Shown: piece after piece, positions 2,244-42,124 of the stretch
Layout of the letters: each line of letters starts with the position of its first letter
Position numbering within the stretch: position 1 is the first letter of the stretch
Assembly: GCF_000153185.1 (NCBI RefSeq)
Contig: NZ_CH724150.1
Coordinates: 80,898-131,395, forward strand
From: Reinekea blandensis MED297
GTDB lineage: Bacteria; Pseudomonadota; Gammaproteobacteria; Pseudomonadales; Natronospirillaceae
Direction: 5' to 3'
DNA: 50,498 bases
Program-made: the position numbers and the translations under genes
The notes under the pieces: model-generated
What the model was told of the DNA's origin: nothing
Seen by the model: the letters and a program-made list of their open reading frames with translations, nothing else
Database searches by the model: none

Positions 2244-2245
2244 AA

Positions 2246-4559: not shown

Positions 4560-5349
4560 CCGGCTCCTGAGCATTTCCCCAGAGCTTTTTCCTAAAAGTT
4601 CATCGATAGGCTATGTGATTTCTTGTCAAGGAGCCAGGGAAAAGCCATCGCAAATTTATAAAGAGGCAGGAGAACGTATATTTGGCGGGAATGCAGAGGT
4701 TTTCCTTCTGGAAGGGTATGGTCTTTCAAGAAATCGTAATAATGCGATTAGCAATGCGTTGAAGTTGGAATCAGATTACATATACGTAGCTGATGATGAT
4801 ATTGAGATTAAAGAAAGTAGTCTATTGGCCGCTGCGGTAGAGTGTTTAAATAGTAGTATAGATATAGGAATAGCAAAAGTTGGGCAAATTGGTAGTAGTG
4901 AACTCTTTAAAAACTATAGAAACAGGGATGCTAGAAGTAAGTTTGGCCTGGCTTTTTCAGCCAGTAGCGTGGAGTTGCTAATACGGACCAATTTTTTGAA
5001 AAAGAATCAGATCGAGTTCGATGAACGGTTTGGATTAGGTTCAATATATCCATCGGGTGAAGAGTTTATATTTATTTTAGACTCCATCCGCGCTGGGGCT
5101 ACTGTAAAGGCAGTTGACGTTGTTGTTTGCGACCATGAGGCCATATCATCAGGAAAGGACTTTTACAGTGATGAAAAGTTAATTGTTGCCAAAGGAGCTA
5201 TGATGAAAAGAGGCACCAAATCTATCGTTGTTTCACTTATACTTGGTGTTTTGTTTTCATTAAAAAAACACCGTGAATATAAACAGACAATTGGTTTTTT
5301 TAAGTTCTGTTTTAACCTGTCAAAAGGGATCCTAAAGATTGGTCATTGA
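4525..5349 (+). CDS. Glycosyltransferase family 2-like protein (GT-A fold)
   Basis: The open frame extends upstream, but sequence before base 4525 is a shadow of the polymerase gene. I choose GTG 4525 (GTG 4519 is also possible), giving 274 residues beginning VKIVITISTTYDRL, a normal first beta strand. An acidic cluster DDD at residues 90-92 after YIYVA fits the metal-binding DxD region, and ERFGLGSIYPSGEEF followed by a VVCDHE segment fits the acceptor region of GT2 enzymes. The nucleotide-binding residues are less canonical than in other GT2s here, so the enzyme is divergent. It overlaps the polymerase by 35 bases and ends 8 bases from the convergent GT2 gene. Confidence 0.65.
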   Translation: MKIVITISTTYDRLLSISPELFPKSSSIGYVISCQGAREKPSQIYKEAGERIFGGNAEVFLLEGYGLSRNRNNAISNALKLESDYIYVADDDIEIKESSLLAAAVECLNSSIDIGIAKVGQIGSSELFKNYRNRDARSKFGLAFSASSVELLIRTNFLKKNQIEFDERFGLGSIYPSGEEFIFILDSIRAGATVKAVDVVVCDHEAISSGKDFYSDEKLIVAKGAMMKRGTKSIVVSLILGVLFSLKKHREYKQTIGFFKFCFNLSKGILKIGH

Positions 5350-5357
5350 TTCAGTAT

Positions 5358-6122
5358 TTACCTTCTTCCTATAGTTGCATGGTACGCATATGAGAGAAAA
5401 GGAAGTATGGCTTTAAGTGTACTCAGGTTTTCATTAGAACGGAGTATGCTCCATTGTCTGATTGCTTTTTTTATTTTATTTGATGAAATTGAATCGTTCC
5501 GGACAGTATAAATGGTTAGGCATTTTTTAAGTAAGTGGACTTCTTTTATTTGATTCTTGAGTAGCAACAACCAAAATGCAAAGTCTTGGCCTGTCCTGAG
5601 ATTAGGCATTTGCATGTTTCCTATCGAGTTACTTTTTAACATTACGGTACTGCACCCTAGTGTTATCTTTTTGTATAAAAGATCAAAATAGTTGAACACA
5701 ATTTTTTGATGTTTTGAATCAACTTTAGAAATGCTGTTATTAGAAATATTTAGTGATGTATAAGAAGTAAATGAAAAACTAGCTTTGTTTTCTTTCATAA
5801 ACATAAGCTGTTCTTCTAGCTTTGTTGGCTCCCATTTGTCATCTGAGTCAAGGAAAGCTATATACTCACCTTTCGCTAACTCAATGCCTTTGTTTCGAGC
5901 AATAGCCGCACCAGAGTTCTGTAGAAGTTTAATGCTTTTAACTCTCCTGTCTTTCTCCATGAATCGTTGGTAAATTAGGCTTGAGTTATCGACAGAACAA
6001 TCATCAACTAAAATATATTCAATGTTTTTATGAGTTTGATTTAAAACTGAAACGATAGTTTCTTCTAAAAAATCTTCACAGTTAAAGACTGGTGTGATAA
6101 CAGTAATTAGTTCATTGCTCAT
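5358..6122 (-). CDS. Glycosyltransferase family 2 (GT-A fold)
   Basis: A 254-residue classical GT2. The first strand and UDP-binding segment is ITVITPVFNCEDFLEETI, followed by ILVDDCSVDNS near residues 38-47 and the DxD region FLDSDDKWEP (DSDD at 92-95). It probably adds one sugar to the lipid-linked oligosaccharide on the cytosolic face. The gene starts 4 bases inside the end of the WecA-type gene (ATG overlap at 6119-6122), so the two are transcribed and probably translated together: WecA makes the first lipid-linked sugar and this enzyme is a good candidate for the second step. It is AT-rich and converges with the plus-strand operon. Confidence 0.9.
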   Translation of the reverse strand: MSNELITVITPVFNCEDFLEETIVSVLNQTHKNIEYILVDDCSVDNSSLIYQRFMEKDRRVKSIKLLQNSGAAIARNKGIELAKGEYIAFLDSDDKWEPTKLEEQLMFMKENKASFSFTSYTSLNISNNSISKVDSKHQKIVFNYFDLLYKKITLGCSTVMLKSNSIGNMQMPNLRTGQDFAFWLLLLKNQIKEVHLLKKCLTIYTVRNDSISSNKIKKAIRQWSILRSNENLSTLKAILPFLSYAYHATIGRR

Positions 6123-7174
6123 AGAGTATTCTTTCTTTTCTTGGTTTTGCGAAGGTACTTCGCCAGTTTAAAAGCGTGACCGATTGCATTTAAGTAACCT
6201 GTAAAAAACACTAAAAATACTAACAGCGATCCTAAAGGAGGCGCATTTCTCTGCAACATCACACCAATGCAGATGAATAGTGTTTGAATAACTAATAGAA
6301 TTGTAAGTGTTGTAGCTTTACTGAAACCGGCTCTTAAAAAGATGTGATGCACGTGTGTTCGGTCTGGATGGAAAGGATTTTTTCCATGCCTTACTCTACG
6401 AATCGTTGTAACTAGAATGTCCAGCAGTGGGATTGCAGCTATCCATAACGCCGTTACTGGCATCATGATTTCTTTACTTTCCTGGCTGTAGCGAATCAAA
6501 AAAGAGGTGATTACAAAGCCCAAAACCATGCTTCCTGCATCACCCATGAAAATTTTTGTAGTCCATTTAGGGAAAATATGGACATTTAAAATAAGGTAAG
6601 CTGTTAATGCACCCATCAATAACAATAAAATATTTTGAGCGCCGTCGGAGATCTTGTCTCCTATTAGGAAATATAGACCAATGGCTGAGATCAAAGTTAA
6701 ACCACCACTGAGACCATCGATGCCATCAATCATGTTAAAAGCATTGATCATACCGATCACGGCTATAAAGGTAACAGGGATGCTCAGCCACCCGAGTTGA
6801 ATCTCTCCAAAGCCGAACAAGTTGCCAAAACTGGTCAGTTGGGTGTTAGCACCCCAAATCAACATGGCGGTGGCTAGGGCTTGGACGCCAAGTCGGATGT
6901 AATAATGGAGGTCAAATCGGTCATCAATGCTGCCGGTCATCACCAACATTCCGCAAGCCGCGAGCAGGTAGGTCATTTCAGAAGAGTGAGGTACAAAGAA
7001 AAGCGCAGCCACGGAGCAGCTGGCAAACATGGCTAAACCGCCAATTAGAGGAATATCACCTTTATGCTGTTTTCGGCCAACAGGCTTATCCACTAAGCCA
7101 ACCTTGGCCGAGAGTGGGGTAAGCATCCACGAAACAATAAATACACCGATAAAAGCGCTAATAAATTCAATCAT
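6119..7174 (-). CDS. wecA: WecA-type undecaprenyl-phosphate N-acetylhexosamine-1-phosphate transferase
   Basis: A 351-residue multi-pass inner-membrane enzyme of the MraY/WecA superfamily, transferring a sugar-1-phosphate (typically GlcNAc-1-P) from UDP-sugar to undecaprenyl phosphate, the committed step for many O-antigens. Hallmarks are visible: QHKGDIPLIGGLAM near 36-49, the aspartates SIDDRFD (84-85), NAFNMIDGIDGLSGG with D150 and D153, FMGDAGSMVLGF, and the cytosolic RTHVHHIFLRAGFS loop that marks WecA-like rather than MraY enzymes. Length matches the family. The 5' half of the gene is GC-richer than the 3' half, so the gene may span a recombination joint. A perfect inverted repeat lies 24 bases upstream of the start. 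Confidence 0.9.
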   Translation of the reverse strand: MIEFISAFIGVFIVSWMLTPLSAKVGLVDKPVGRKQHKGDIPLIGGLAMFASCSVAALFFVPHSSEMTYLLAACGMLVMTGSIDDRFDLHYYIRLGVQALATAMLIWGANTQLTSFGNLFGFGEIQLGWLSIPVTFIAVIGMINAFNMIDGIDGLSGGLTLISAIGLYFLIGDKISDGAQNILLLLMGALTAYLILNVHIFPKWTTKIFMGDAGSMVLGFVITSFLIRYSQESKEIMMPVTALWIAAIPLLDILVTTIRRVRHGKNPFHPDRTHVHHIFLRAGFSKATTLTILLVIQTLFICIGVMLQRNAPPLGSLLVFLVFFTGYLNAIGHAFKLAKYLRKTKKRKNTL

Positions 7175-7198
7175 TTAGCTAATTTCACAATCCTTTCA

Positions 7199-7215
7199 AT
7201 AACATGTAATGTTAT
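7199..7215. promoter_or_regulatory. Perfect 7-bp inverted repeat upstream of wecA (operator-like)
   Basis: ATAACAT-gta-ATGTTAT is a perfect 7-bp palindrome with a 3-base centre, located 24 bases upstream of the wecA start and about 90 bases before the divergent WaaL-like gene. The size fits a dimeric regulator half-site pair, but I do not recognise the consensus. A run of pyrimidines follows it on the plus strand, so a hairpin is the alternative reading. Confidence 0.35.
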
Positions 7216-7306
7216 CACTCTTCTTTTTTACGGGGTAGTTTGTGGTTACTGATTTCAAAGGGTTATTTCGCTATAGTGTCGCGAAACTTTAAGGGTGGAA
7301 GTTGGT

Positions 7307-8590
7307 ATGGACCGAGATACAGTGCATCGTTGGGTGTGGTGGGTATTATCGGCGGCTATTGTGTTGCACTATTGCGTATTGTGGGTTGTTCGGTATTCAA
7401 ATGAGTGGGTGCCTGGAGTCTTAGTTGTAATTTCGACAGGCTGGTTGATTTTTAATCGATTTGCCCGCCCGTTCAGTCGGCAGGAAAAGTGGTTGCTGGC
7501 CGCAATGTTCCTCTTACCGTTTTCAACCTTTGTTCGTTTGTTGTTCGATTTGTCTTATTCGCCATCGGCATTTGATATCCAGTCGCGTTTCATCATTGTA
7601 TTGCCTCTGATCCTTCTGTTAGTTCGCTATGGGTTCAATCGACATTGGCTGATCGCAGGGATGGGGGTTGCGGTTGTTATTGCGCTGTTTTATATGGTGT
7701 TTCTTACGCTGGACGGTCAAAGTCGGCCAAAAGTGAATATGAACCAGATTACCTCTGCAAATTTGATGGTGTATCTAGGGTTTGCGGTTGTGGCGTTTTC
7801 AATGGTACATGTGTTTGAGCATAAAGGGTCGCGTTGGTGGCTCGTAGTCGGCGGAAGTGTGTTGCTGGCGGCACTGATTGCAGCGGTATTGAGTAAGAGC
7901 CGGGGGGCTTGGTTGAGTGTGCCATTCTTTGTTGGTTCTTCGCTGTGGTTGTTTCGACAACATTTCAAGCGTTGGCAGTTAGTTGCTATTGTGCTCGTGA
8001 CGGTCTTGGGAGGTCTTACGGTCGCCTATTTGCCTGGGTCTCCAGTATTACCGCGTATCCAGGAAGGGATAAGTGACGCCAACCGATACTTTACGACAGG
8101 GGAGGTAACTCGTTCAATTGATACCCGTTTGAATATGTGGGAAACCGCCATCGAGGCGTTCAAACTGAATCCCCTGTTCGGCCTGAGTGAAAAAGGATTG
8201 CAGAAATTTGAACGTGAAGGCGGTGTTGCGAAATACCTTGAAAAATATGGGCACCAGCACAGCGACTTTTTTGATATTTTGGCGAAACGCGGTTTGGTTG
8301 GGCTGGCGTTTTTTTATGGTTTTTGGGCGGTTTTTTTCTGGGCCTTTAATGGTTATACGTCACCAGGTTACCGAGAGGCCGGTATTTTACTGGGTGTTGG
8401 TTACCTGGTGTTTGGTTTAACTGAGACAACGACTGGGAACTACGCCGCAATGAGCTTGCTGGCTGTGCAGACAGCGCTTTTGTTTGGTGGTGGGCATCGG
8501 GAGTGGTTGCTGGTTCATAAACCGGAGGTTTTGGAACGGTTTTCCATGTATTGGCCAGAGCAAGAGGTATTGGTGGGTAAAGGTGAGTAG
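7307..8590 (+). CDS. O-antigen ligase family protein (WaaL-like)
   Basis: A polytopic membrane protein of 427 residues when started at ATG 7307 (MDRDTVHRW), which has AAGGGTGG upstream; a GTG at 7295 would add four residues. About ten hydrophobic helices surround a large periplasmic loop. Within it, TRLNMWETAIEAFKLNPLFG and, near residue 316, GHQHSDFFDILAKRGLVGL match the Wzy_C pattern, the HxxS...G segment being the conserved His region of WaaL ligases. WaaL joins undecaprenyl-linked O-antigen to lipid A-core in the periplasm. The next gene is a core-type glycosyltransferase and LptF/LptG lie close by, which favours ligase over polymerase. A TTTCGC-N9-GCGAAA inverted repeat flanking TATAGT sits at 7266-7286 just upstream. 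Confidence 0.75.
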   Translation: MDRDTVHRWVWWVLSAAIVLHYCVLWVVRYSNEWVPGVLVVISTGWLIFNRFARPFSRQEKWLLAAMFLLPFSTFVRLLFDLSYSPSAFDIQSRFIIVLPLILLLVRYGFNRHWLIAGMGVAVVIALFYMVFLTLDGQSRPKVNMNQITSANLMVYLGFAVVAFSMVHVFEHKGSRWWLVVGGSVLLAALIAAVLSKSRGAWLSVPFFVGSSLWLFRQHFKRWQLVAIVLVTVLGGLTVAYLPGSPVLPRIQEGISDANRYFTTGEVTRSIDTRLNMWETAIEAFKLNPLFGLSEKGLQKFEREGGVAKYLEKYGHQHSDFFDILAKRGLVGLAFFYGFWAVFFWAFNGYTSPGYREAGILLGVGYLVFGLTETTTGNYAAMSLLAVQTALLFGGGHREWLLVHKPEVLERFSMYWPEQEVLVGKGE

Positions 8591-13810: not shown

Positions 13811-14893
13811 TCAATCCTCTCGTCGGATCGCAATTCGAATCAGAGCTGTAAACAGCCCGAAAAAGCCTGCCAATACAGTAGCCGCTACAGCAATCAGTTT
13901 GCGATTTGGCTTTTCGGCATTGGCGGGAATATTCGCCGCAACTTCACTGCCAACAAATTGTAACGCCTCAGTGGAGGGCACTTCATAGTCGCTCAGTGCA
14001 CCCAGCCGGCCTTGAATGCTCTCTGGAGAAATGGTTTGTGCCAGACCTTCCTCATCGTAACCAACGATAATTGGACTCAAATTAGGTTGAGCAGACTCCA
14101 GTGATTTGATTTCGGCTGACAGGATGCGGGTCCCTTTCAGGTAAAGCTCGCCCTGAGAGGCTTCCCAGTCTGTTGGCTCTGTAATATTAAGTTCCTGAGC
14201 TACGTCGAGAGCGCTGCGTAACCGCAACAGGTGTTCCTGTTTTTGGGCTAAAGCAGCTTCTTTAAGTTGGTTGAGGTCGGCTTGCAACTGAGACAGTGCA
14301 ATCTGCTTCGCACCTTCGATATCGCTTAACGTATCGGCGAGGGTCTTTGCTGACGCCGCTTCTAGGAGTCCATTGATCAGAGTCTGTGCTATGGCGGGCT
14401 CACTGCTTAATAGGCTGACTGAAATTTGATCAATGGTCGGCGTTTCATCTTGCAATGTCTGAATAAAATCGTACTCAACCGGCGCCACCCGAAGCGCTTG
14501 AGACATCCTCAGTACCAAGCTGTAACGTTTCTCAGCCGACAAGGCTTTGCCGTCGTTATCAACCATTAATCCGTGGCTGTCCAGCACAGATTCAATCAAG
14601 TTCGGCGTTTTCAGGTTTTTAAGAAAATCCTCCAGTAGCTGCTGCCGGCTAAGGTCGACAAACGGCTGGGAGATTAACGACGACAGGTGAGTGGTAGAGG
14701 GTTTATCAAAAACCGCCTCAACGCGATACTGTTTGGGCAACATCAGTGCGACAACAACCCCGACGACGGCGCCTAAAAACGTAATGCCGACAATGAGCGG
14801 CCATTGAGCGATAAGTTGCTTGATCAATTGGCCCAGGTCAATTTCATCATTATCGTGCGGCCTTAAGTGAGCCAGATCAGTATTTTGTGACAT
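13811..14893 (-). CDS. Wzz/KpsE-type polysaccharide co-polymerase
   Basis: A 360-residue inner-membrane protein with Wzz topology. A short acidic cytosolic N-terminus (HDNDEIDLGQLIKQLIAQW) leads into helix 1 (LIVGITFLGAVVGVVVALM, ~33-52), then LPKQYRVEAVF, the conserved start of the Wzz domain. A long periplasmic helical region (~60-320) follows and a C-terminal helix (KLIAVAATVLAGFFGLFTAL, ~330-350) ends in a charged tail. No tyrosine-kinase domain is fused. Wzz proteins set O-antigen chain length; KpsE-like members serve ABC-transporter capsule export. Its position divergent from the Wzm/Wzt genes fits either role. Confidence 0.8.
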   Translation of the reverse strand: MSQNTDLAHLRPHDNDEIDLGQLIKQLIAQWPLIVGITFLGAVVGVVVALMLPKQYRVEAVFDKPSTTHLSSLISQPFVDLSRQQLLEDFLKNLKTPNLIESVLDSHGLMVDNDGKALSAEKRYSLVLRMSQALRVAPVEYDFIQTLQDETPTIDQISVSLLSSEPAIAQTLINGLLEAASAKTLADTLSDIEGAKQIALSQLQADLNQLKEAALAQKQEHLLRLRSALDVAQELNITEPTDWEASQGELYLKGTRILSAEIKSLESAQPNLSPIIVGYDEEGLAQTISPESIQGRLGALSDYEVPSTEALQFVGSEVAANIPANAEKPNRKLIAVAATVLAGFFGLFTALIRIAIRRED

Positions 14894-15157: not shown

Positions 15158-15928
15158 ATGTTTATTAAATCGCTTGTTCTCGCCCATACCATGGCGGCAA
15201 TGCGCCTAAAGAGTGAAGCTTCCAAGCTTTATTTAAGTTACTTGTGGTGGATTTTAGAACCGATGCTTTATGTGGCTGTGTTCTATTTTGCCTTTTCATA
15301 CCTGCTTAATCGCGGCGGTGAGAACTTTTTGGTGTTCCTGATGTGCGGCAAGATCCCGCTGATGTGGTACACCAAAACCCTGATCAAAAACTCAATGTCG
15401 CTCACGACGGGAAAAGGGTTGATGGGGCAACGCGATTTTCCAAAGTTTGTTTTCCCATATTCCCATACATTGGAAGCAGCTTATAAAGAAACAGTGGTTT
15501 ACTTGTTTTTAGTCGCCTTTGTCTGGCTTTACGGTTTCGAAGCGGGTGTCGAATGGCTGTACTTATTAGCGCTAGTGCCGGTTATGTTGTTGTTGATTTT
15601 GTCGACAGGGATGGTTGCCGCATACATTACGGTGTACGTGCCGGACTTTCGCATGATCATCGCCATGTTTACCATGGCTTTGTTGTTTGTATCTGGCGTG
15701 TTCTGGGACGTACGAGCTTTACCGGACCCACGAATGACCGAGCTGATGCTCATCTATAATCCATTCGCATTCATGCTGGATGCGCACCGCCAGGTACTCA
15801 TGTACCGCACAGCACCGGATTGGACACAACTTGGCTACATTGCGGGTGGCGCTGCCTTGCTTCTATTGATTATGCATGGCTGGTTTGCCAGCCAAAGTCA
15901 GCGAATCGCGCGGAGACTGTATTCATGA
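15158..15928 (+). CDS. wzm: Polysaccharide ABC transporter permease (Wzm/KpsM-like)
   Basis: A 256-residue ABC-2 type permease with six hydrophobic helices. The N-terminal amphipathic region MRLKSEASKLYLSYLWWILEP, with the L-x-W-W-x-L-E-P segment, is typical of KpsM/Wzm/TagG proteins. It exports completed lipid-linked or phospholipid-linked glycan across the inner membrane with the ATPase encoded next. The ATG at 15158 has AAAGAGAA upstream. The stop overlaps the ATPase ATG (ATGA at 15925-15928), so the pair is translationally coupled. It heads an apparently continuous plus-strand transcript that runs to the rml genes. Confidence 0.9.
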   Translation: MFIKSLVLAHTMAAMRLKSEASKLYLSYLWWILEPMLYVAVFYFAFSYLLNRGGENFLVFLMCGKIPLMWYTKTLIKNSMSLTTGKGLMGQRDFPKFVFPYSHTLEAAYKETVVYLFLVAFVWLYGFEAGVEWLYLLALVPVMLLLILSTGMVAAYITVYVPDFRMIIAMFTMALLFVSGVFWDVRALPDPRMTELMLIYNPFAFMLDAHRQVLMYRTAPDWTQLGYIAGGAALLLLIMHGWFASQSQRIARRLYS

Positions 15929-16638
15929 CTGAAACGAACTTGGCCTTACAAGCCAATAACATCTCCGTAACTTACCACAGCCGAACCGGGTTGTTTAAGT
16001 CGTTCAAATTCCAGGCGCTTAACAATGTGAGTTTTAAGGTAAAGCGCGGCGAAACCTTCGGCGTCATGGGCCGTAACGGCTGTGGAAAATCCAGTTTGCT
16101 GCGCGTTTTGGCTGGGGTATATCAAGCCGATGCGGGTGAATTGGTGACCCATGATATTGCGACTCGAACACTGCTTACACTAGGGTTGGGCTTTGATGCG
16201 ACCCTCTCCGGTGCTGACAACGCCATTCTGAGCATGATGTTACAAGGCTTCAGTCGTGAAGAAGCCAAGGCCTATTTGCCAGCAGTTCGGAATTTTTCGG
16301 AACTGGGCGACTTTTTTGAGCGCCCAGTGAAGACCTACAGTTCGGGCATGCGTTCCCGGTTAGGTTTTTCAACCGGTATCACCACCCAAACCGACCTGCT
16401 GTTAATTGACGAAACACTTGCCGTCGGCGACAAAACCTTTAATGCGAAAGCCGAAAAAGCCATGATGGAGCGCATTGATAGTGATCAAACCGTCATATTT
16501 GTTTCTCACAGCGGAGCGCAGGTGCAAAAAATATGTCAACGGGCCATTTGCCTGGAGCGGGGCAAACTGGTTGCCGAAGGCGATGTCAAAGACGTTGCGC
16601 AGGAATACGCCAACATAAACGACAAGAAACTGGATTAA
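15925..16638 (+). CDS. wzt: Polysaccharide ABC transporter ATPase (Wzt/KpsT-like, no C-terminal sugar-binding domain)
   Basis: The start is ATG 15925, overlapping the permease stop, giving 237 residues; the longer open frame is a shadow. Walker A is GRNGCGKS (49-56), the signature YSSGMRSR (138-145), Walker B LLLIDE (158-163) and the switch His is at 195 (VSHS). The YSSGM form is typical of polysaccharide and teichoic-acid exporters. The protein ends soon after the nucleotide-binding domain, so it lacks the C-terminal carbohydrate-binding domain that reads capped O-antigen in Wzt of E. coli O8/O9a. That makes it KpsT-like in architecture. It is followed after 23 bases by the coiled-coil gene. 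Confidence 0.9.
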   Translation: MTETNLALQANNISVTYHSRTGLFKSFKFQALNNVSFKVKRGETFGVMGRNGCGKSSLLRVLAGVYQADAGELVTHDIATRTLLTLGLGFDATLSGADNAILSMMLQGFSREEAKAYLPAVRNFSELGDFFERPVKTYSSGMRSRLGFSTGITTQTDLLLIDETLAVGDKTFNAKAEKAMMERIDSDQTVIFVSHSGAQVQKICQRAICLERGKLVAEGDVKDVAQEYANINDKKLD

Positions 16639-16661: not shown

Positions 16662-18143
16662 ATGCTGATGATTACTCATGCGTTAGAGCCCGAGTTTGGA
16701 AGCTCCGTGATGGAGCGCTTTAACGGCAAGCCCGGCGTGGTACTGCTGGACAACATAGCACAGGGTGGTGCAAGTGGTAGGGTTCGAGAGTTCCTGGCAG
16801 CAGAACCCAGTAACCGAGTGCTGGTCTTTGTGGATTTTGCTGCCGAGCGCTTGGGTGCGATGTACCAACAAGAAGCAAGCGTTCAACAAACCGCGATAGA
16901 CGAATGGGTAAGTCAAGCTGGCGCCTTATTAGAGGTGCACAAGCAGGACCGTAAACGCATTCGGTTGGTAAGTCTTGCGTCGGCTGTTTTTGACCCTCAT
17001 GCCTTGAAAGACGAATTTCATATAACCATGGAACTGCCTTCTCATTCACCAGAGCAAGCTTTGGGCATGACGCTGGTGGAAAAACTCGTGACCGGTGACT
17101 ACGCCGAGCTGGACTTGCACCTGCGTGCCTGTACTCGAACCTACAACGAAAGCGCATTAATGGCCGAGAAGGCAAAGCAAGCAGCGGACTTCATTATTAC
17201 TCAACAGTTAGAAATAGCCACATTGCAACGGGCCCTGAAGGCTGAGGCTGAAGAAAAGCAGGCGATAACCAACGACGCAGAAAAAAGAACGATGACGCTT
17301 AGGGCAGAGCTTAAAAGTGTCAACGCTTCAAACAAAGAACTAAACAGCGAAAACAGCTTATTGCTTGACCAGCTACACAAGGTGCAGGAAGACTTGGAAC
17401 GAAAGCTCCTTGAAGTGACCGAGCAGGAAAAACTCGCTAAAAAGAACGAAAAAGCCCTTCAGGCAAAGCAAAACGAGTTGGTCAAAGAGAAGGCCAGTAA
17501 CGATAAAGCAATAGAAAGACTGAAAACCCAGCACGCCAAAGAGCTCGATTCGCTGGATGCCTCACTAAAAGCTGAAAAAGCGAAGAACAAAGACCTCGCG
17601 GAAGAAAACGACCTGATTTTAAACCAGCTGCACCTGGTGCAAGAAGAGTTAGAGCGTTACTACCAGGAGCTTCGCTCAACCAAACAACTCAGCGACAGCC
17701 ATGCTCGTAAGTTTGAACAACTCAACGAGAGTATGAAGTTGCAATCCCGCAAGCACAGCCGAGCCCAGGTGCAACTGAACCGAGTGCAAAACGCCTTCAG
17801 TTGGAAGGTAACCAAAGTATTCCGTTCGGCAATACGTCTATACCCCAGAGTCCGCCTCTCTGAGCAGGTTGAGTTGCTCAAAGCCAGTGACCTGTTCGAT
17901 GAGACGTGGTACCTCAAAACCTACCCCGACGTGCAAAAAGCCGGACTGGATGCCGCCATTCATTACTTGCGGCATGGCGCGAAAGAAGGCCGGAACCCCG
18001 GGCCAAACTTCGATACTCAGTGGTACCTGCAACAATACCCCGATGTTCAAAAAAGCAAGCTTAACGCACTGGTGCATTACATTTTGTACGGCATTGATGA
18101 AAACCGCAAAGTGTCCCCGCGATTGTTAACCCATCGGGCTTAA
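16662..18143 (+). CDS. Long coiled-coil protein with C-terminal tandem 38-residue repeats; function unknown
   Basis: A 493-residue protein without signal peptide or membrane helix. Residues 1-150 form a globular domain I do not recognise. Residues ~165-375 are a charged, heptad-rich coiled coil. It contains an 85-residue duplication: ENSLLLDQLHKVQEDLER and ENDLILNQLHLVQEELER. A basic linker (FSWKVTKVFRSAIRLYPRVR) leads to two tandem 38-residue repeats starting at F412 and F450, each with WYL, a YPDV segment, HY and G. The same module occurs at the N-terminus of the glycosyltransferase at 32713. ATG 16662 has AGGAGA upstream. Position between wzt and the rml genes suggests a scaffold or length-control role in glycan assembly; this is inference. 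Confidence 0.75.
   Translation: MLMITHALEPEFGSSVMERFNGKPGVVLLDNIAQGGASGRVREFLAAEPSNRVLVFVDFAAERLGAMYQQEASVQQTAIDEWVSQAGALLEVHKQDRKRIRLVSLASAVFDPHALKDEFHITMELPSHSPEQALGMTLVEKLVTGDYAELDLHLRACTRTYNESALMAEKAKQAADFIITQQLEIATLQRALKAEAEEKQAITNDAEKRTMTLRAELKSVNASNKELNSENSLLLDQLHKVQEDLERKLLEVTEQEKLAKKNEKALQAKQNELVKEKASNDKAIERLKTQHAKELDSLDASLKAEKAKNKDLAEENDLILNQLHLVQEELERYYQELRSTKQLSDSHARKFEQLNESMKLQSRKHSRAQVQLNRVQNAFSWKVTKVFRSAIRLYPRVRLSEQVELLKASDLFDETWYLKTYPDVQKAGLDAAIHYLRHGAKEGRNPGPNFDTQWYLQQYPDVQKSKLNALVHYILYGIDENRKVSPRLLTHRA
17895..18122 (+). repeat. Two tandem copies of a 38-residue (114-base) protein repeat
   Basis: Copy one starts at 17895 and copy two at 18009, a spacing of exactly 114 bases. 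Both encode F-D-x-x-W-Y-L-x-x-Y-P-D-V-Q-K and later an H-Y and G. The first copy adds EGRNPG before the second begins. A matching pair with identical 114-base spacing begins at 32770. Confidence 0.8.
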
Positions 18144-18153
18144 GGATAACGCA

Positions 18154-19257
18154 ATGAGTAAACCAACAACATGCTTGGTCTGGGTTGGGGCAGGCAAGGC
18201 GAGTACACCAAAAAACGTTGAACAATTCGATCGTGCTTTTTTAATTGAAGGTCGGCTAAGTCAGGCCGAACACCTCAGAGATCGGTTCAAAGACAACCCC
18301 AAAGTTCAGGTGTTAGCAAAAGTTGTTAATGCACAAGCATCGGAACAGTCGTTTTATCAGCTGAATATTGCGGAATACTCAGCTTTGCACGAACCAGGCG
18401 AGCTCTATGAGCTCTACCCAGGTATAAAAGTAGAGTCGGCAGAAAGTCAGCAATCCACAAGCATTGATGACTTGCTCTCAGATATCCATGAAGCCATCGG
18501 CGAATCGCAATCGACCCTTCTGCTGGACACCCCGGATATCGCATTTGCTCTCGTCCAAAAACTCATAGAGACTCAATGGCTGGATAAACTTGCTACGGTT
18601 ACCGTCGCCGTAACGCCAAACTCGTTGTACAAGGGAAATGAGGGTGGGGACATTGATGGTTTACTGGCACTGGCAGGGTGGATACCCAAACAAACCGATC
18701 GCGACGACCCTGAATGGCAGTACATCAGTTACGAACCGAACCCTCTAGCTGGGCAGGTAAAAGAGCTAAAGCAAGCACTCAAAAAAGAGTTTGAAGAAAA
18801 AGAAACAGCTCAACAAAGCCTGCAGCGCTTAGAAGCTCAACTTGAAGAAAAGTCGCAATCAAATGCAAAACTGGCAAAGCAAGAGGCGGAGTTAAAACAT
18901 CAACTTGCCCAGTTGCAAGAAAAAGTTAAGCAACAACCTGCCGCCGAAGAGCTAGAGAAACTCAAACAAACGCAGCAAGCCATAGCCAAAGAAAGAGAAT
19001 CACTCAAAGCTCAAATCGCCGACGTGCAGGCCAGTGAAAAGAGGGCCAAAGAGGAAAAAGCGGCATTCGAAAAGCACTACGTAAACCACCAGCAACGCAT
19101 GGCGGATTTGGAAAAAGAAAATCGCCAACTGCGCGATGAAAACGAGCAAACCCAAAAGCGTCAAGAGTTGCTGGATGCTGAGCTCAAAAAAGCCGAAGCT
19201 CAAATAGAGATCATTAAAGAACTGTTACTAAAAGAATCGAGTGAATCAGATGACTGA
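18154..19257 (+). CDS. Methyltransferase-fold-like N-terminus fused to a long coiled coil; function unknown
   Basis: A 367-residue protein. Residues 1-200 look like a degenerate FkbM-type Rossmann fold: VWVGAGKAS at the cofactor-loop position, [17 protein letters not shown] resembling the acidic strand and helix, [20 protein letters not shown], and TSIDDLL where FkbM enzymes have TLDDL. The glycine loop is weaker than in active enzymes, so cofactor binding is doubtful. Residues ~203-360 are an almost uninterrupted charged coiled coil. The gene is 10 bases after the other coiled-coil gene and its last codons overlap rmlB. A methyltransferase-like head with a coiled-coil stalk recalls the WbdD chain-length regulator, but I see no kinase domain. 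Confidence 0.65.
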
Positions 19258-22824: not shown

Positions 22825-25800
22825 ATGCTGCAAGATCGTAGTTTGTTATCTATGGGGATATCTCATCAAAAAAAGGGTGATTTCCCCTCTGCGATGAAAG
22901 ATTTTTCCGGTTCATTAGTGGGGGCTTCTTCTGATATTGTCGCCGAGCAAGCCTATTTCAACATGGTGGTGTTATCACAATCATTTGCTAAGTCTGACTC
23001 AATTGTCGAAATAGATTTAGATAATTCGGAATTTGGAAAGGTCGAAAAAGAGATATTCGCGATTGACCAGTTGAATCTAGAAATACTTTCTCGACTCAAC
23101 GAAATGGCAATTCAAAACGCCGCGCATGTTGTATGCCTTGGAAAGGTAACTTTCGCCAAGCTGGCTTTCATTGCTTTTCATGCATTCTATTGGAGTAGTG
23201 CCATTAGAAGCGATGAGTTTGAAGATACCTACAAATTCTTAGGCCAGAATAAAATTGGCTGTAGTAATCAGCAAATAGAAAAGATTCAGAGACTAAGCGA
23301 ACCAGCTTCAATGCGTTCGAAGCTCACTAGTGGCGACTACAAGTCGAATTTGAAAAGCTTTATTTGCGATAGATTTGATGGAGTTTTGGACTGTTTGGAA
23401 TCTGTTGTTGAAGTAGTATTAGGTAAACGTGAAGTAGATTGGGAAGTTTCAATAGTTATACCAAACTTAGATGGTGCCAGCCTATTGGAAGACCTATTTG
23501 CCTCTTTGTTTGAGCATGTGGATCAACGGCAGCTGAAGTTAGAAGTTATAGTAATTGACCACAACTCAAGTGACAACTCAGAGGAGGTCTGTCAAAGATA
23601 CAAAAATAGATTTGATCTTAGATTTATAAATCGTGGGCGGAACTATTCATTTTCTAGCTCTTGCAATTTGGGTGCAAAGAAAGCTAAGTATTCTAATCTA
23701 TTGTTTTTGAACAATGATATCGTTTTTCAATCAGATTCAATATCTGAGTCGCTCAAGTTGTTTGATAGGAGCAATACCGGCTGCGTTGGCGTTCGAATGC
23801 TAAATGAATCTGGTGATATAGTTCACAATGGTATCGAGTTTAAGTGGGAGGATAGTAGAGGCTATTTTATTCCAAAAAACATTATAGAGCCTACTTCTTC
23901 AACACTAAATCAAGTTGCTGTAACAGGTGCTCATTTACTGTTAAAAAAGTCAGATTTCGACAAAGTTGGTGGCTTTGATGAGTCATTTTATTACGGTTTG
24001 GAAGATGTTGATTTATGCTTAAGAGTTGTCAAGTTTCTTCAAAAAAGAGTTCTTTTGAATGAGAATTCAAAAGTAGTGCACAAAAACGAAGTAACAAGAA
24101 TGCGACTTCCAAGAGTAGCTTTTGATGCTGAAAGAGACAGAAATCATCGCATATTTAAATCTGTCTGGGGGGGCGTAGTCAATAATTGGCAACATGAGCG
24201 CAAACGTTCAGAAAATGGACAGAATTATCAGCAAAACTATAACCGAGAAGAGTATGCTGGTCTTATATCTTCGAATGAGCCAGATCATTCACAGGCTGTC
24301 AGTTTTATCGATTATGGCTATTCTAACGAGTTTGATTCTTATGTGTATCGAAAAGAGAGTTTTCTAAAAGGCATTTTTAGGTGCTGGATATCTGCTGCAA
24401 AAGAAAAGGACCTTGATGACATAAAAGTACTTTTTCTAGTTGATGATAATATTTTGGGAGGCTCAAAAATAGAGTTTGATCGACCCGATGTTTATAAAGC
24501 TACAGGACGACCAGCGGGTGAAGCAGTTTTCAATATACCCAAAACATATTTGGATGGTAAACCTCATGATTTTAAGGTCGTTATAACAACGGCATTTGCT
24601 AGTAAAGTTGTTTTTGAAAGTCACTTTTCTGAAAAATCAGAGTGGGTTGAAATTAGGGAAACTGCTGAACTGGAAGGGAAGTTTGTGATTTTGCTTTCTT
24701 CTCACAATCTAAAAGTGCAAGGTGCGCAAACAAGTCTGTTTCAGACAGTAATAGGGTTGAAGAATGATGCAAGACTGTTTCCTGTAGTTTTTTCACCTGT
24801 TGATGGCCCACTTAGGCATCAATACGAGGCAAACGGCATCCCGGTTATTATCCAAAGTTATCCTCGAGTAAATGGGCAGACTAAAAATTCATGGTTAAGT
24901 GAGTTTAAATATTTCGTAGAGTGCATCACTGCTCTACAGCCTAAGGTGATTGTTGCAAATACTTTGCAATCGTACCAAACCGCCATTGCTGGCTTATGTT
25001 TAGATATGCCTACAGTACTGGTACCCCGTGAAAGTGAAGAACCTGCAGATTATTTTTCGAATTTGCCCAAATACTTAAGAGGTTATGCAGACTCACTAGT
25101 CTCTTCAGTTGATCAAGCAGTATTTGTTGCTAAAGCCACTCAGAAATTGTGGAAACATGCGAACATGGACAACCAGCGTGTTATTTATAATGGGCTAGCT
25201 ATTTCCGAACTGGAAAAGAAAGTTGCAGGTGAAACGAAAGAGTCTGCAAGAATTTCTTTTGGCTTTTCCTCAAATGACAAAGTAATTCTTAGTGTAGGAA
25301 CAGTATGTGAAAGAAAGGGGCAGCTAGATCTGATTCGATCAATTCCGAGCATTTTGAGAAACAATGTAGAAGAATCGATTAAATTTGTCATAGTTGGGAT
25401 GAATGATAATGAATACTCAATGGCTCTAAAGGATGCAGTATCTAGATTCCCCCAAAAGGTACAAGAATCTGTTTTCTTACTACCACAGACAGAGCAAAGT
25501 AACGACACCTTAGTACAAAAATTACTATTAGCTTCAGATTTATTTGTAATTTCTTCGATATATGAAAGCTACCCCAGAGTTGTATTGGAGGCTTTATATT
25601 TTGGACTGCCAGTAATTGCAACACCATGCTTTGGTGTTTTAGAGCAGATCGATGATGGGAAAAGCGGTTTTTTCTATCAGGAAGGGAATTATCACGACCT
25701 TTCTGAAAAAATATGTACGTTAGTGTGTGACGATAGGTTGCTTGAACAGCATTCTAATGAGGCATATAAAAAATTTGAATCTCTCACTAGTTATGAAGAT

Positions 25801-25854
25801 ATGGTTTCTGAGTATAGACAATTGGTTTTAAGTTTAGCGGGGCATGCTTTCTAA
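22825..25854 (+). CDS. Two-headed glycosyltransferase (GT2 + GT4) with N-terminal helical region
   Basis: A 1009-residue protein. Residues 1-200 are helical and start with TPR-like text (SMGISHQKKGDFPSAMKDF). A GT2 domain spans ~208-430 with VSIVIPNLDGASLLEDL, VIVIDHNSSDNS, the metal site FLNNDIVF and FDESFYYGLEDVDLCLRV. A beta-rich linker domain at ~490-615 (FLVDDNILGGSKIEFDRPDV) separates it from a GT4 domain (~620-1000) with SSHNLKVQGAQTSLFQ, LSVGTVCERKGQLDLI and the EX7E motif ESYPRVVLEAL near 914. It could add two different sugars or alternate linkages. ATG 22825 has AGGT upstream. AT-rich. The next gene follows with no gap. Confidence 0.85.
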   Translation: MLQDRSLLSMGISHQKKGDFPSAMKDFSGSLVGASSDIVAEQAYFNMVVLSQSFAKSDSIVEIDLDNSEFGKVEKEIFAIDQLNLEILSRLNEMAIQNAAHVVCLGKVTFAKLAFIAFHAFYWSSAIRSDEFEDTYKFLGQNKIGCSNQQIEKIQRLSEPASMRSKLTSGDYKSNLKSFICDRFDGVLDCLESVVEVVLGKREVDWEVSIVIPNLDGASLLEDLFASLFEHVDQRQLKLEVIVIDHNSSDNSEEVCQRYKNRFDLRFINRGRNYSFSSSCNLGAKKAKYSNLLFLNNDIVFQSDSISESLKLFDRSNTGCVGVRMLNESGDIVHNGIEFKWEDSRGYFIPKNIIEPTSSTLNQVAVTGAHLLLKKSDFDKVGGFDESFYYGLEDVDLCLRVVKFLQKRVLLNENSKVVHKNEVTRMRLPRVAFDAERDRNHRIFKSVWGGVVNNWQHERKRSENGQNYQQNYNREEYAGLISSNEPDHSQAVSFIDYGYSNEFDSYVYRKESFLKGIFRCWISAAKEKDLDDIKVLFLVDDNILGGSKIEFDRPDVYKATGRPAGEAVFNIPKTYLDGKPHDFKVVITTAFASKVVFESHFSEKSEWVEIRETAELEGKFVILLSSHNLKVQGAQTSLFQTVIGLKNDARLFPVVFSPVDGPLRHQYEANGIPVIIQSYPRVNGQTKNSWLSEFKYFVECITALQPKVIVANTLQSYQTAIAGLCLDMPTVLVPRESEEPADYFSNLPKYLRGYADSLVSSVDQAVFVAKATQKLWKHANMDNQRVIYNGLAISELEKKVAGETKESARISFGFSSNDKVILSVGTVCERKGQLDLIRSIPSILRNNVEESIKFVIVGMNDNEYSMALKDAVSRFPQKVQESVFLLPQTEQSNDTLVQKLLLASDLFVISSIYESYPRVVLEALYFGLPVIATPCFGVLEQIDDGKSGFFYQEGNYHDLSEKICTLVCDDRLLEQHSNEAYKKFESLTSYEDMVSEYRQLVLSLAGHAF

Positions 25855-29640: not shown

Positions 29641-31083
29641 ATGATTTTCAGTTCTATTGGTTTTATTTTTGCCTTTTTACCAATAACAGTCTTTGTCTAC
29701 TACATTTTGGAGAAGAATTACTCAGCTTTCTCTATTCCATTCTTAGTCGTAGCTTCTTTGTTTTTCTATGCGTATTGGAAGCCTATATATTTACCCTTAA
29801 TAGTAATATCCGCCTTTGTCAACTATTGCATAGGGCGTTTGGTTTCAGTTGAAAAAGACAATTCAATTAAGAGAACTGTTTTGTCGTTAGGTATTTTGCT
29901 TAACATTGCTACTTTAGCACTATTTAAATATGCAGATTTTATTTTTGAAAATGTCAATATTGTTACTGGGCTTGATATCGAACCACTCAATTTGCTACTT
30001 CCGCTAGCCATTAGCTTTTTTACTTTTCAGCAAATTGCTTTTCTAGTTGATAGCTATAAAGGTGAAGTGGATGACTATTCCATTAGTGACTATTTTTTAT
30101 TTGTAACTTTTTTTCCTCAGTTGATTGCTGGACCAATTGTTCACCACAAACAAATGATGCCCCAGTTTAGTTCATCTTCGAAGCAAGGCATAAACTTAGG
30201 GAATATTGAAAAGGGTATTCTGATTTTTTCAATAGGGCTATTTAAGAAATTAATAATTGCTGATTTTTTTGGTGGTTATGCGGATGTTGGTTATGAGTCT
30301 GTTGATCATATTGGGTTCTGGGGTGCATGGGCAACAAGTTTATCGTATACGATCCAACTTTATTACGATTTCTCAGGTTATTGTGATATGGCAATTGGTG
30401 CAGCTCTGTTTTTTAATATTAACCTTCCTATTAACTTTAATAGCCCTTATAAAGCTCTGAATATTCAGGATTTTTGGCGCAGATGGCACATGACACTGTC
30501 AACATGGTTGCGAGATTATGTCTACATTCCAATGGGTGGAAACCGGAAATCTAGTAGAATTACAAGCCGTAACTTGCTTTTAACTTTCTTCATTGGTGGG
30601 GTGTGGCATGGTGCTGGGTGGGGATTTGTTCTTTGGGGTATTTTACACGGTTTAGCGCTGGTATTTCATCGAATGTGGACATCTACTGGTTTAAAGATGT
30701 CGAAGTATCTTGGTTGGTTTGTGACTTTTATGTTTGTCCATGTTGCCTGGGTGTTTTTCAGAGCACCTGAAATATCGGTTGCTTTTGAATTAATAGAGAA
30801 ATTATTCACTCCTGATTTGGCTGATGTGCAAAATGTGATCCAAAATTTATTTGTAAGCTATCATATGACTCCAATTCTGTTAAAACTAGATGGCCCGGTA
30901 GTTGTTTTGTATTGCATTTTTGTATTGGCATATACTTTTATAGGAAAAAACTCAATTCAAATTTTAGAATCTGAATATATTGCCTCATGGAATGTTTCCC
31001 TAGTTGCTGCAGCTGCTTTCGTTATAGGTGTTATGGCATTGATTGGTAGTAAGAGCCAAACCTTTCTTTATTTTAATTTTTAG
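29641..31083 (+). CDS. MBOAT-family O-acyltransferase (AlgI-like)
   Basis: A 480-residue polytopic membrane protein. It opens MIFSSIGFIFAFLPI, the usual start of AlgI/DltB-type acyltransferases. Family landmarks are FFPQLIAGPIVHHKQMMPQF, YYDFSGYCDMAIGAALFF, FNSPYKALNIQDFWRRWHMTLSTWL split over residues ~270-295, and the invariant-His segment GGVWHGAGWGF with the His near 323, plus a second His in GILHG. It moves acetyl groups across the inner membrane for transfer to the polysaccharide in the periplasm. The AlgX/AlgJ-like gene 12 bases downstream is the expected periplasmic partner. Confidence 0.92.
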   Translation: MIFSSIGFIFAFLPITVFVYYILEKNYSAFSIPFLVVASLFFYAYWKPIYLPLIVISAFVNYCIGRLVSVEKDNSIKRTVLSLGILLNIATLALFKYADFIFENVNIVTGLDIEPLNLLLPLAISFFTFQQIAFLVDSYKGEVDDYSISDYFLFVTFFPQLIAGPIVHHKQMMPQFSSSSKQGINLGNIEKGILIFSIGLFKKLIIADFFGGYADVGYESVDHIGFWGAWATSLSYTIQLYYDFSGYCDMAIGAALFFNINLPINFNSPYKALNIQDFWRRWHMTLSTWLRDYVYIPMGGNRKSSRITSRNLLLTFFIGGVWHGAGWGFVLWGILHGLALVFHRMWTSTGLKMSKYLGWFVTFMFVHVAWVFFRAPEISVAFELIEKLFTPDLADVQNVIQNLFVSYHMTPILLKLDGPVVVLYCIFVLAYTFIGKNSIQILESEYIASWNVSLVAAAAFVIGVMALIGSKSQTFLYFNF

Positions 31084-31095
31084 CGGATTGTTATT

Positions 31096-32616
31096 GTGTT
31101 AAAAAAGTGGCTAATTTTAGTGATCTCGTTTACTGCTGCCTTCTTAATAGCGAATTATCAGAAGTTACCCAATGGATTCGATGCTAAAGATTCGTCCCGT
31201 GAAATGTTGAGTGTCGACTTAATAGAGGCAATAAGGAACTTCGGATTCCTCAAGCTTGGTGTTTCTGGTAATCCCGAAAAGGTGTTGGTTGGACGTGATA
31301 GTTTTTTGTTTTTAGGGGAATCACATAATCGGTCATTGACACAGTATCTAAACAGGCAAACTATTAATTTTGATGCAACAGCTAAAGGGTTTGATTTTTT
31401 GGAAAGTTTACGCCGTGACCGTGGATATGAGGTGGTTTTCCAATTAGCGCCATCAAAAGCTTCAATTTATTCTTCAAAGTTGCCACATTTCTTAGGTAAT
31501 GTTATTCCATTTGATGCAAACGATGACGTGATCGAACGATATCGCTTTGCGATTTCTCCAAAAAATAGACTTCTTAGTCAAGTTCAAGGCGGCTTTGATG
31601 TTTATTTCAAAGGGGATACTCATTGGAATGAATTTGGAGCATACATTAGTTACTTGCAGGTTATGGAACAGCTTGAAATTTTGAATGATGAAAGCTACGA
31701 ATATGTAAATGATGCAGTATATGAGAATATACAAGATAGTACTTTTAGAGATTTGGAAAGGTTTCTGAAACTAGACAAAATTATGCTTGATAAGCAGACC
31801 TTGTTGCCTGGAGACCTTTCATCTGTTGTTAATATAAATGATAGCTTTGGTGCAAAGATAAATGTAGAGCAGCTTGATTACCGTATCGGTGGAAAAACGG
31901 TTATGCAATTCGAATTGCCAAATAAAGACATTGGTTCAAACCATAACCCTTACCATATAGAAAATGAAACTGCACTTAATAGTAAATCAGTACTTTGGCT
32001 ACGAGACTCATTTGGTACAGCGATGTCAAAACCAATTTTCTATACGTTTTCGAACGTAACTCTAATACATCCGAATCGTCTTACTCAAGCCGAATTTGAC
32101 CATCTAATCAAAGGTAAAACATTCGATATTGTTCTAGTTACTCTGACTGAACGGCAAGCTTATCCTTTGCTTGAAAAGCTTCCTAATCTAATGGCTAATT
32201 TGCCAGAGAAATCTGGACAATCGAGTGCCTGTAAATTCAATCTTCGTAAATTGTCTCTTTGGGATTATGAAATATATAGAAAGCGGATTTTAATGCCAGA
32301 AACTACTGGGTTGTATGAGGCTATTGGTAAAGATCCACAAATAGGTTTCGATTTAAGGCAAATTAATGAATCTTTATGTGCCAAAAAAAGTCTGAGGCTA
32401 TCCATTAACGTCAAGAGTAAGGACGTTCTTCAGATTTATTACAGAGCAGAAAGTATGAATAAGTTGACAGAGGCTATGAGTGTCAAGTTTAACCTGCAAC
32501 CCGGATTGAATGTGATTGAATGGCTGGTCCCAGATGGTGTGAGTGAAATTAGAGTTGATCCAATACAAGGAGTAGGCCATTTTGTTTTCGATAGTGCCTA
32601 CTTAGAGTTGAACTGA
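31096..32616 (+). CDS. AlgX/AlgJ-like SGNH O-acetyltransferase (membrane-anchored)
   Basis: A 506-residue protein starting at GTG 31096. An N-terminal hydrophobic segment (WLILVISFTAAFLIANY) anchors or exports it. The SGNH-type acetyltransferase region shows GRDSFLFLGESHNRS, QLAPSKASIYSSKLP, the D-x-H pair in KGDTHWNEFG (D174, H176) and the nucleophile-like Ser in LWLRDSFGTAM (S305). That matches the AlgX/AlgJ triad layout. The C-terminal ~110 residues form a beta domain ending in IRVDPIQGVGHFVFDSAYLE. It should transfer acetyl groups from the MBOAT protein to the glycan in the periplasm. Located 12 bases after the MBOAT gene. Confidence 0.85.
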   Translation: MLKKWLILVISFTAAFLIANYQKLPNGFDAKDSSREMLSVDLIEAIRNFGFLKLGVSGNPEKVLVGRDSFLFLGESHNRSLTQYLNRQTINFDATAKGFDFLESLRRDRGYEVVFQLAPSKASIYSSKLPHFLGNVIPFDANDDVIERYRFAISPKNRLLSQVQGGFDVYFKGDTHWNEFGAYISYLQVMEQLEILNDESYEYVNDAVYENIQDSTFRDLERFLKLDKIMLDKQTLLPGDLSSVVNINDSFGAKINVEQLDYRIGGKTVMQFELPNKDIGSNHNPYHIENETALNSKSVLWLRDSFGTAMSKPIFYTFSNVTLIHPNRLTQAEFDHLIKGKTFDIVLVTLTERQAYPLLEKLPNLMANLPEKSGQSSACKFNLRKLSLWDYEIYRKRILMPETTGLYEAIGKDPQIGFDLRQINESLCAKKSLRLSINVKSKDVLQIYYRAESMNKLTEAMSVKFNLQPGLNVIEWLVPDGVSEIRVDPIQGVGHFVFDSAYLELN

Positions 32617-41982: not shown

Positions 41983-42034
41983 ACGTTGCCCGGTGTTACC
42001 ATCCCCCTCCCTTGGCTTTCGGGCAACGTTTTTT
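41983..42034 (+). terminator. Rho-independent terminator between EF-hand gene and glrK
   Basis: ACGTTGCCCG (41983-41992) pairs perfectly with CGGGCAACGT (42020-42029), a 10-bp stem with a 27-base loop, followed by six T (42029-42034). It terminates the EF-hand transcript and argues that the following kinase starts downstream of it. Confidence 0.88.
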
Positions 42035-42124
42035 GATTCCGCATCACAGTTTAGCCGTCGCTGTCTGGCGGGCGCTCATTGCTTTATAGACAATGGCGAC
42101 CCCTATGTCGGACCAAGCCTGTTC

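Follow-up and report, generated by a model that had tools for sequence, protein, structure and literature searches.

The stretch of DNA analysed here (hereafter the window: 50,498 nucleotides (nt) of contig NZ_CH724150.1 of Reinekea blandensis MED297) carries two adjacent open reading frames, ORF1 and ORF2, between wzt, the ATPase gene of an ATP-binding cassette (ABC) exporter, and rmlB. A sequence-only reading had described them as coiled-coil genes without a recognizable enzyme that might form a ruler or scaffold recruiting glycosyltransferases to the exporter, and the two ORFs are indeed there, with the borders given in Table 1. With wzt ending upstream of ORF1 and the rmlB frame starting at 19241, on the downstream side of ORF2, the genes are consecutive, with small gaps or an overlap. 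Each protein has a coil within the predicted range of about 160-210 residues, of 210 residues in ORF1 (free of proline and glycine) and 162 in ORF2; the 3.5-residue periodicity of both stands at z 4.8 against shuffled sequences and is absent from their N-terminal domains (z -0.4 and 0.8, respectively). Pfam detected no kinase domain in either protein, again as proposed, and neither Pfam nor NCBIfam offered a credible family for them, the matches being SMC-like and other coiled-coil noise well under the cut-offs. Our analysis indicates with high confidence that ORF1 and ORF2 form a conserved, unannotated glycan-assembly module that is often linked to ABC exporters.

The pair was traced through the coil of ORF1, which holds two copies of a motif with the consensus ENELLLLQLHQVQEELE. 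A scan of public genome contigs with the single protein ORF2 gave no confirmed relative, and an alignment of 12 ORF1 proteins had no stretch conserved sufficiently for searching; a DNA pattern for the motif (ENx-h-x-h-xQ-h-xx-h-QE[ED]LE, h being mostly hydrophobic) worked instead. This pattern has two matches in the window versus none in 100 shuffles, and it recurs in stretches of public genomes of up to 8 kb each, numbering at least 118, a lower bound from an uneven sample. The loci belong mostly to beta- and gammaproteobacteria, with others in Chlorobiaceae, desulfobacteria, Campylobacteraceae and further groups; no exact match was found in viral contigs. Positions that the pattern leaves free are conserved too across 164 distinct instances (E3 70%, L5 78%, H10 72%, Q11 74%, F/Y20 86%), and since part of them need not face the coil core, this suggests a docking surface. 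Spacing of the motif in heptads is a tendency at most (multiples of 7 in 18 of 50 spacings). An iterated profile finds the ORF1 domain in 81 of 114 motif ORFs, and single-pass profiles from eight seeds each find 79 ORF1-domain and 53 ORF2-domain ORFs in the motif loci, both counts including three loci that are seed genes again. It should be noted that the ORF1, ORF2, Wzt and Wzm profiles were iterated on the loci where they were then counted, and their E-values are in-sample. A similarity-based count of glycosyltransferases around the motif, with 20 of the at least 118 loci positive, proved too insensitive and was not used.

Some motif loci depart from this plan. Proteins of a second motif family (L113, L118, L148, L180 and L138, from Burkholderia, Achromobacter, Bordetella and desulfobacteria) have the coil motif at their start, then a helical stretch that by eye resembles tetratricopeptide repeats, a long coil and, at the end, an ORF2-like tail or, in L138, a methyltransferase-like LILEFGSG stretch. 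This family hints at a single-chain counterpart, in which both functions can share one chain. One further locus (L133), with ORF1- and ORF2-like genes, comes from a metagenome-assembled genome labelled Klebsiella pneumoniae, a label that may be a binning error.

ORF1 and ORF2 mostly occur together. Where a motif-locus ORF1 has at least 1 kb of downstream sequence, ORF2 follows it on the same strand in 40 of 55 loci (the overlapping L173 being left uncounted), no more than 300 nt away in 31 of the 40, and inside the motif stretches it was never found upstream. Searching 50 whole genomes with motif loci detected ORF2 in 41, of which 39 at E <= 1.5e-26; two of the ORF2-less genomes (L118, L148) carry the second motif family. 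Among 341 genomes of the order, the ORF2 protein matched ten, its own included; G308 (an efflux pump) and G202 (SMC) were dropped as noise from their loci, and in all seven real relatives ORF2 is accompanied by an ORF1 homologue, adjacent or one gene off. N-domain profiles of ORF1 and ORF2, seeded from these same eight pairs, strongly match the same 8 of the 341 genomes, so that no further sampled genome has one gene alone at that strength. Weak extra matches fell in G174 and G158 (ORF2) and in G248 and G272 (ORF1), and no pair was seen in the regions of G174 and G272. Of 369 genomes of the class, G593 and G631 carry ORF1 and ORF2 adjacent to each other, and five (G388, G597, G511, G503, G581) gave weak, unconfirmed profile matches.

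A lack of conserved linkage to wzm and wzt had been named beforehand as grounds for abandoning the idea, and this is not what we observed. Among 39 regions surveyed, less two on other contigs (L221 and L230), the ORF1 domain was present in 35 of 37; both Wzm and Wzt lie within about 10 kb in 18 of these 35; widening the distance to about 30 kb raises the count to 27, and one more region has Wzt and no whole Wzm. In L210 Wzm and Wzt are on the opposite strand. Likewise, wzm and wzt are near the pair in the first-found genomes G002 and G076, Wzt is in the region in G092, both proteins are encoded within about 30 kb in G108 and G706, and for G018 and G337 the contigs are short. Most of the Wzt proteins (25 of 28) have 216-310 amino acids (aa), the other three 355, 397 and 416. 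At 237 aa the window Wzt is too short for an added cap-binding domain, as the sequence-only reading had noticed; judged by length, neither it nor those 25 would carry a cap-reading carbohydrate-binding module. The exporter itself does not require the pair, as judged from Wzm homologues, many of them weak, in 23 of 57 relatives and from one pair-free cluster, that of G019, whose Wzm is 48% identical and in which 13 kb were examined. A group 2 capsule is disfavoured as the context: KpsC/KpsS (PF05159) has no match in the host genome, which is 96.76% complete, and the window has two Wzy_C (O-antigen ligase/polymerase) genes instead.

The expectation that ORF2 starts with a methyltransferase-like fold was borne out by modelling. 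A model of the head built from 50 family members reached a mean predicted local distance difference test score (pLDDT) of 93.8, and Foldseek gave 58 PDB matches at E <= 0.001 (best E 1.7e-5), nearly all of the 50 listed being methyltransferases or complexes of them. The window head matches a profile of the family made without it (E 3e-32; this and the other leave-window-out and wide-profile E-values are calculated for 100,000 sequences). In the family the S-adenosylmethionine (SAM) loop is well kept (G12 in 49 of 50 and G14 in 47 of 50 members), as is the acid after strand 2 at position 32 (48 of 50), and the window copy has a GAGKA loop and E32. The FkbM Pfam model (PF05050) is matched by 11 of the 50 heads (best E 1.7e-7) and is not reached by that of the window. 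We predict that the head is a class I SAM methyltransferase fold of FkbM-like type, of which the window copy may be active; the fold and SAM loop are shared with FkbM methyltransferases, from which ORF2 differs by the fusion of its head to a long, often repeat-built coil. The pattern of the 16-residue C-terminal tail was found in 15 of 84 ORF2-type proteins and none of 100 ORF1-type proteins; it also occurs in 4 of the 36 motif ORFs that lack the ORF1 domain and in 2 of 1342 other ORFs. Past the coil, 8 of the 84 ORF2-type proteins (L083, L206, L210, L212, L216, L070, L243, L244) have a second methyltransferase-like stretch (LIxEFGSG).

For ORF1, the view that no enzyme is recognizable held for the Pfam and NCBIfam searches and not for the family, which is sulfotransferase-like without the cofactor loop. 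Against the PDB, the ORF1 family profile placed tyrosylprotein sulfotransferase 1 (TPST1) alone below E 0.01, in three of the seven sequences listed (E 0.003-0.004). In 57 related genomes the profile of long-type ORF1 members also matches other proteins, at E 1e-12 to 1e-8 for those with an HRSGTS loop; the loop was present in all three non-ORF1 proteins inspected, picked as matches of this profile, and two of the three match Sulfotransfer_3 short of its curated cut-off (E 1e-4 and 3e-3). ORF1 differs from this family, whose members its profile finds, in being fused to a coil and adaptor repeats and in the loss of the cofactor loop in 40 of 40 long-type members: [KR][ST]G[TS], which we take to be the consensus of the loop that binds the cofactor 3'-phosphoadenosine-5'-phosphosulfate (PAPS), occurs in none, and its K/R is kept in one. 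The start of the window ORF1 (LMITHALEPEFG) has no trace of it either. The window N-domain alone matches a profile of the seven other seeds at E 1.5e-4 (whole protein 1.7e-3) and a wide profile at E 2e-8 (whole protein 1e-6), the wide search having started from an alignment containing the window copy, with final rows that exclude it. Judged by these sequence comparisons, the ORF1 family head is firmly assigned as a dead sulfotransferase-like domain, and the window head less firmly so.

The other end of ORF1 shares its repeat with a glycosyltransferase, as had been noticed: the two copies are 42% identical (E 1.7e-15), and a repeat profile finds the ORF1 end at E 2e-38 and the N-terminus of the 819-aa glycosyltransferase at E 1.3e-20. 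Such a common repeat fits the suggested recruitment of glycosyltransferases. In the G019 cluster, a coil-free protein of 336 aa (L281:5132-6142), adjoining the close Wzm relative, combines a sulfotransferase-like loop (GGYERGGTTLLS) with a C-terminal WYL-type repeat, both recognized by eye, and it is possibly a living cousin of ORF1.

What sets the ORF2 coil apart is its tandem arrays. With Tandem Repeats Finder and units of at least 60 nt, arrays were found in 27 of 67 ORF2 genes and in 15 of 92 ORF1 genes, where a single gene read twice accounts for two of the 15. Of the 573 remaining genes in these loci only 2 have one (Fisher p 5e-27 versus ORF2 and 5e-12 versus ORF1). Units are multiples of 21 nt, that is whole heptads, in 18 of the 27 ORF2 arrays, with 210 nt occurring five times, and in 6 of the 15 ORF1 arrays. 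Of 23 other coil-rich ORFs only one has an array, and that one is a fragment at a region edge. This comparison suggests that the length of the ORF2 coil, and not only its presence, is itself selected or drifting in register, and the arrays are suggestive of a length-setting role.

The arrangement recalls the coiled-coil terminators of ABC-dependent glycans, in that ORF2 carries its enzyme domain on one end of a long coil, with an ABC exporter encoded alongside. In Klebsiella and Escherichia coli, according to the portion of PMC11231755 on which we draw, coiled-coil proteins keep the terminating enzyme apart from the polymerase, and the exporters of terminated chains have a carbohydrate-binding module on Wzt. 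Altering the coil of WbdD shifts the modal chain length, as stated in the part of PMC5082667 used here. We propose, at about even confidence, that this terminator or ruler machinery has a two-protein variant in ORF1 and ORF2. A rod headed by a SAM-dependent FkbM-like methyltransferase, ORF2 would cap the growing chain once the chain reached that head, so that chain length would be set by rod length; within the family, the rod lengthens and shortens through tandem duplications, chiefly in units of whole heptads. For ORF1 we envisage a sulfotransferase-like protein that is catalytically dead and retained as a scaffold, a role in which we have moderate to high confidence, with C-terminal repeats that would dock glycosyltransferases (here the 819-aa one) and QLHQVQEELE motifs that would dock another, constant partner. 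With no cap-binding domain on the window Wzt, such a cap would end growth without licensing export. The step to a ruler, taken from linkage, SAM loop and heptad arrays, is one that we infer, and that ORF2 is a capping ruler is in our view an even bet at best. Taken more broadly, the module may be a widespread, so far unrecognized glycan-length machine, with a genetically tunable heptad-repeat ORF2 ruler, a dead-sulfotransferase ORF1 scaffold bearing a universal coil docking motif, swappable C-terminal adaptors and ABC exporters blind to the chain end; this larger picture is tentative and, in our judgement, more probably wrong than right, its standing having been lowered because ORF2 is not always beside ORF1.

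Several observations weigh against the two-protein ruler or its parts. The pairing is incomplete: seven of the 50 whole genomes have ORF1 without a detected ORF2 (two Psychrobacter, two Moraxella, a Neisseria, a Limnohabitans and a tubeworm endosymbiont), G248 has a real ORF1 and no ORF2 within the 16 kb examined, G706 has none within 18 kb of its ORF1, and the ORF2 of L129, L132 and L140, seen in their wider regions, is not adjacent to ORF1 but 5 to 22 kb upstream. Nor is the exporter always near, with neither Wzm nor Wzt in 7 of the 35 regions (three of them contigs of 32 kb or less) and none within 58-59 kb each in G346, G593 and G631. The head of the window ORF1 is the weakest sequence link: the profile of the 40 long-type sulfotransferase-like members fails to match the protein, and Foldseek of its head model (pLDDT 81.9) gave no PDB match at E <= 0.001, with sulfotransferases making up 12 of the 50 weak matches listed. 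The window copies of ORF1 and ORF2 have no tandem array. Finally, by a crude measure, ORF1 and ORF2 show no correlation of coil length across 43 pairs (rho 0.21, p 0.18), and a single joint rod of matched length is not supported; what the heptad arrays fit, in the ruler-or-scaffold idea, is the length-setting part.

ORF2 could instead be an ordinary O-methyltransferase acting on the repeat unit, its coil serving only to form oligomers or to tether it to the assembly complex, with ORF1 as a glycosyltransferase scaffold and no ruler at all. Retention of the SAM loop in most of the family agrees with this, as do a coil length that varies without relation to the partner and exporters that mostly lack a cap reader, for which a cap is unnecessary. 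We nevertheless think it unlikely, given how often ORF2 genes, and how rarely other coil-rich ORFs, carry arrays, mostly of whole heptads. Less probable still is that both proteins are purely structural, with both heads, methyltransferase and sulfotransferase, in decay and with rods that space membrane enzymes without setting chain length. The missing cofactor loop of ORF1 would suit such a role, and two further findings argue for that role and also count against the capping ruler: the loop of the window ORF2 is GAGKA instead of GxGxG, its third glycine being replaced by A, and SAM loop or acid is lost in three relatives of the same order (L031, L033, L034). In favour of the structural role there is also the loss of loop or acid in L106, L139 and L182 of the wider set. 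The near-complete conservation of loop glycines and acid in the 50 members, the window included, stands opposed. That ORF1 is a working sulfotransferase, so that the pair would decorate the glycan with sulfate and methyl, is highly improbable: its family profile does match sulfotransferases, but the loop is gone from all 40 long-type members and from the window.

Returning to the proposed two-protein ruler, its closest likeness is WbdD of E. coli O9a and Klebsiella O3, which, in the portions of PMC11231755 and PMC5082667 cited here, also has a methyltransferase N-terminal to a coiled coil, is encoded in the locus of an ABC-exported glycan and recruits a separate polymerase. Unlike WbdD, ORF2 has no kinase, is accompanied by a second coiled-coil protein and is encoded beside a Wzt without a cap-binding domain; WbdD was absent from the PDB sequence matches listed and from the 50 ORF2 fold matches listed. 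The Klebsiella terminators of O4 (ORF7), O7 (ORF6) and O12 (WbbB) similarly use a coil to part the terminating enzyme from polymerase modules, with activities divided over one or several proteins, as far as the same portion of PMC11231755 describes them. Their exporters have a Wzt with a carbohydrate-binding module, according to that portion, whereas here 25 of 28 do not exceed 310 aa, and the present module adds a sulfotransferase-like partner. Closer in this respect is the exporter of Klebsiella O1/O2a, which lacks the module and so a cap reader; there, the part of PMC11231755 in question has length set by the stoichiometry of exporter to synthesis, whereas here a coiled-coil pair is present. 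We found no paper joining sulfotransferase(-like) or FkbM coiled-coil proteins with Wzt, an ABC transporter or lipopolysaccharide, and a broader literature search returned no title on the ORF1/ORF2 pair among the matches listed.

Coiled-coil terminators have so far been characterized in a few enterobacterial serotypes, with cap-reading exporters. A paired and far wider form near exporters that do not read a cap would raise the question of how length is controlled when the chain end does not gate export. Coils built from repeats provide natural variation in length, which opens the ruler idea to comparison between strains, and the coil motif offers a ready marker for such clusters among unannotated genes.

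Table 1. Features of the window discussed in the text (positions in the window; strand; supporting evidence).
Feature	Positions	Strand	Evidence
Wzm-like ABC exporter membrane protein, 256 aa	15158-15928	+	ABC2_membrane E 3e-5, slightly short of curated cut-off; KpsM E 1.6e-8
Wzt-like ABC exporter ATPase, 237 aa, without added cap-binding domain (by length)	15925-16638	+	ABC_tran E 3.9e-19
ORF1, 493 aa	16662-18143	+	
ORF1 N-domain, aa 1-165, putative divergent sulfotransferase-like family member without cofactor loop	16662-17156	+	
ORF1 coiled coil, aa 166-375	17157-17786	+	periodicity z 4.8
ORF1 coil motif copy 1, aa 230-246, ENSLLLDQLHKVQEDLE	17349-17399	+	0 expected from shuffles
ORF1 coil motif copy 2, aa 315-331, ENDLILNQLHLVQEELE	17604-17654	+	0 expected from shuffles
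ORF1 C-terminal repeat, WYLxxYPDV type	17856-18110	+	profile E 2e-38
ORF2, 367 aa	18154-19257	+	
ORF2 N-domain, aa 1-200, predicted class I SAM methyltransferase fold	18154-18753	+	model, Foldseek, profile
ORF2 coiled coil, aa 201-362	18754-19239	+	periodicity z 4.8; no tandem array
ORF2 C-terminal tail, 16 residues	19189-19236	+	tail pattern
819-aa glycosyltransferase, GT2 and GT4 domains, proposed ORF1 partner	32713-35172	+	Pfam
N-terminal repeat of 819-aa glycosyltransferase, same type as ORF1 end	32752-32976	+	profile E 1.3e-20

Elsewhere in the window, a second large glycosyltransferase with GT2 and GT4 domains lies at 22825-25854, and it and the 819-aa enzyme are the polymerase candidates. 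Upstream, the end of a Wzx-like gene, glycosyltransferases and a Wzy_C gene (23-5349) are followed at 6119-8590 by a WecA-like gene on the minus strand and a second, ligase-like Wzy_C gene, so that the ABC-type cluster seems to have a Wzy-type neighbour. A Wzz chain-length protein (13811-14893, minus strand; PF02706 E 4.9e-11), the divergent neighbour of wzm, may serve that Wzy-type cluster. Downstream, an MBOAT acyltransferase precedes an AlgX-like protein (29641-32616), and a second, weaker AlgX-like protein lies past the 819-aa glycosyltransferase (35172-36515); on this evidence the glycan is probably acylated outside. Farther on, a histidine kinase, a 191-aa ORF without a Pfam match and a sigma-54 response regulator stand in a row at 41993-45497, an order that we take to resemble the GlrK/QseG/GlrR operon.

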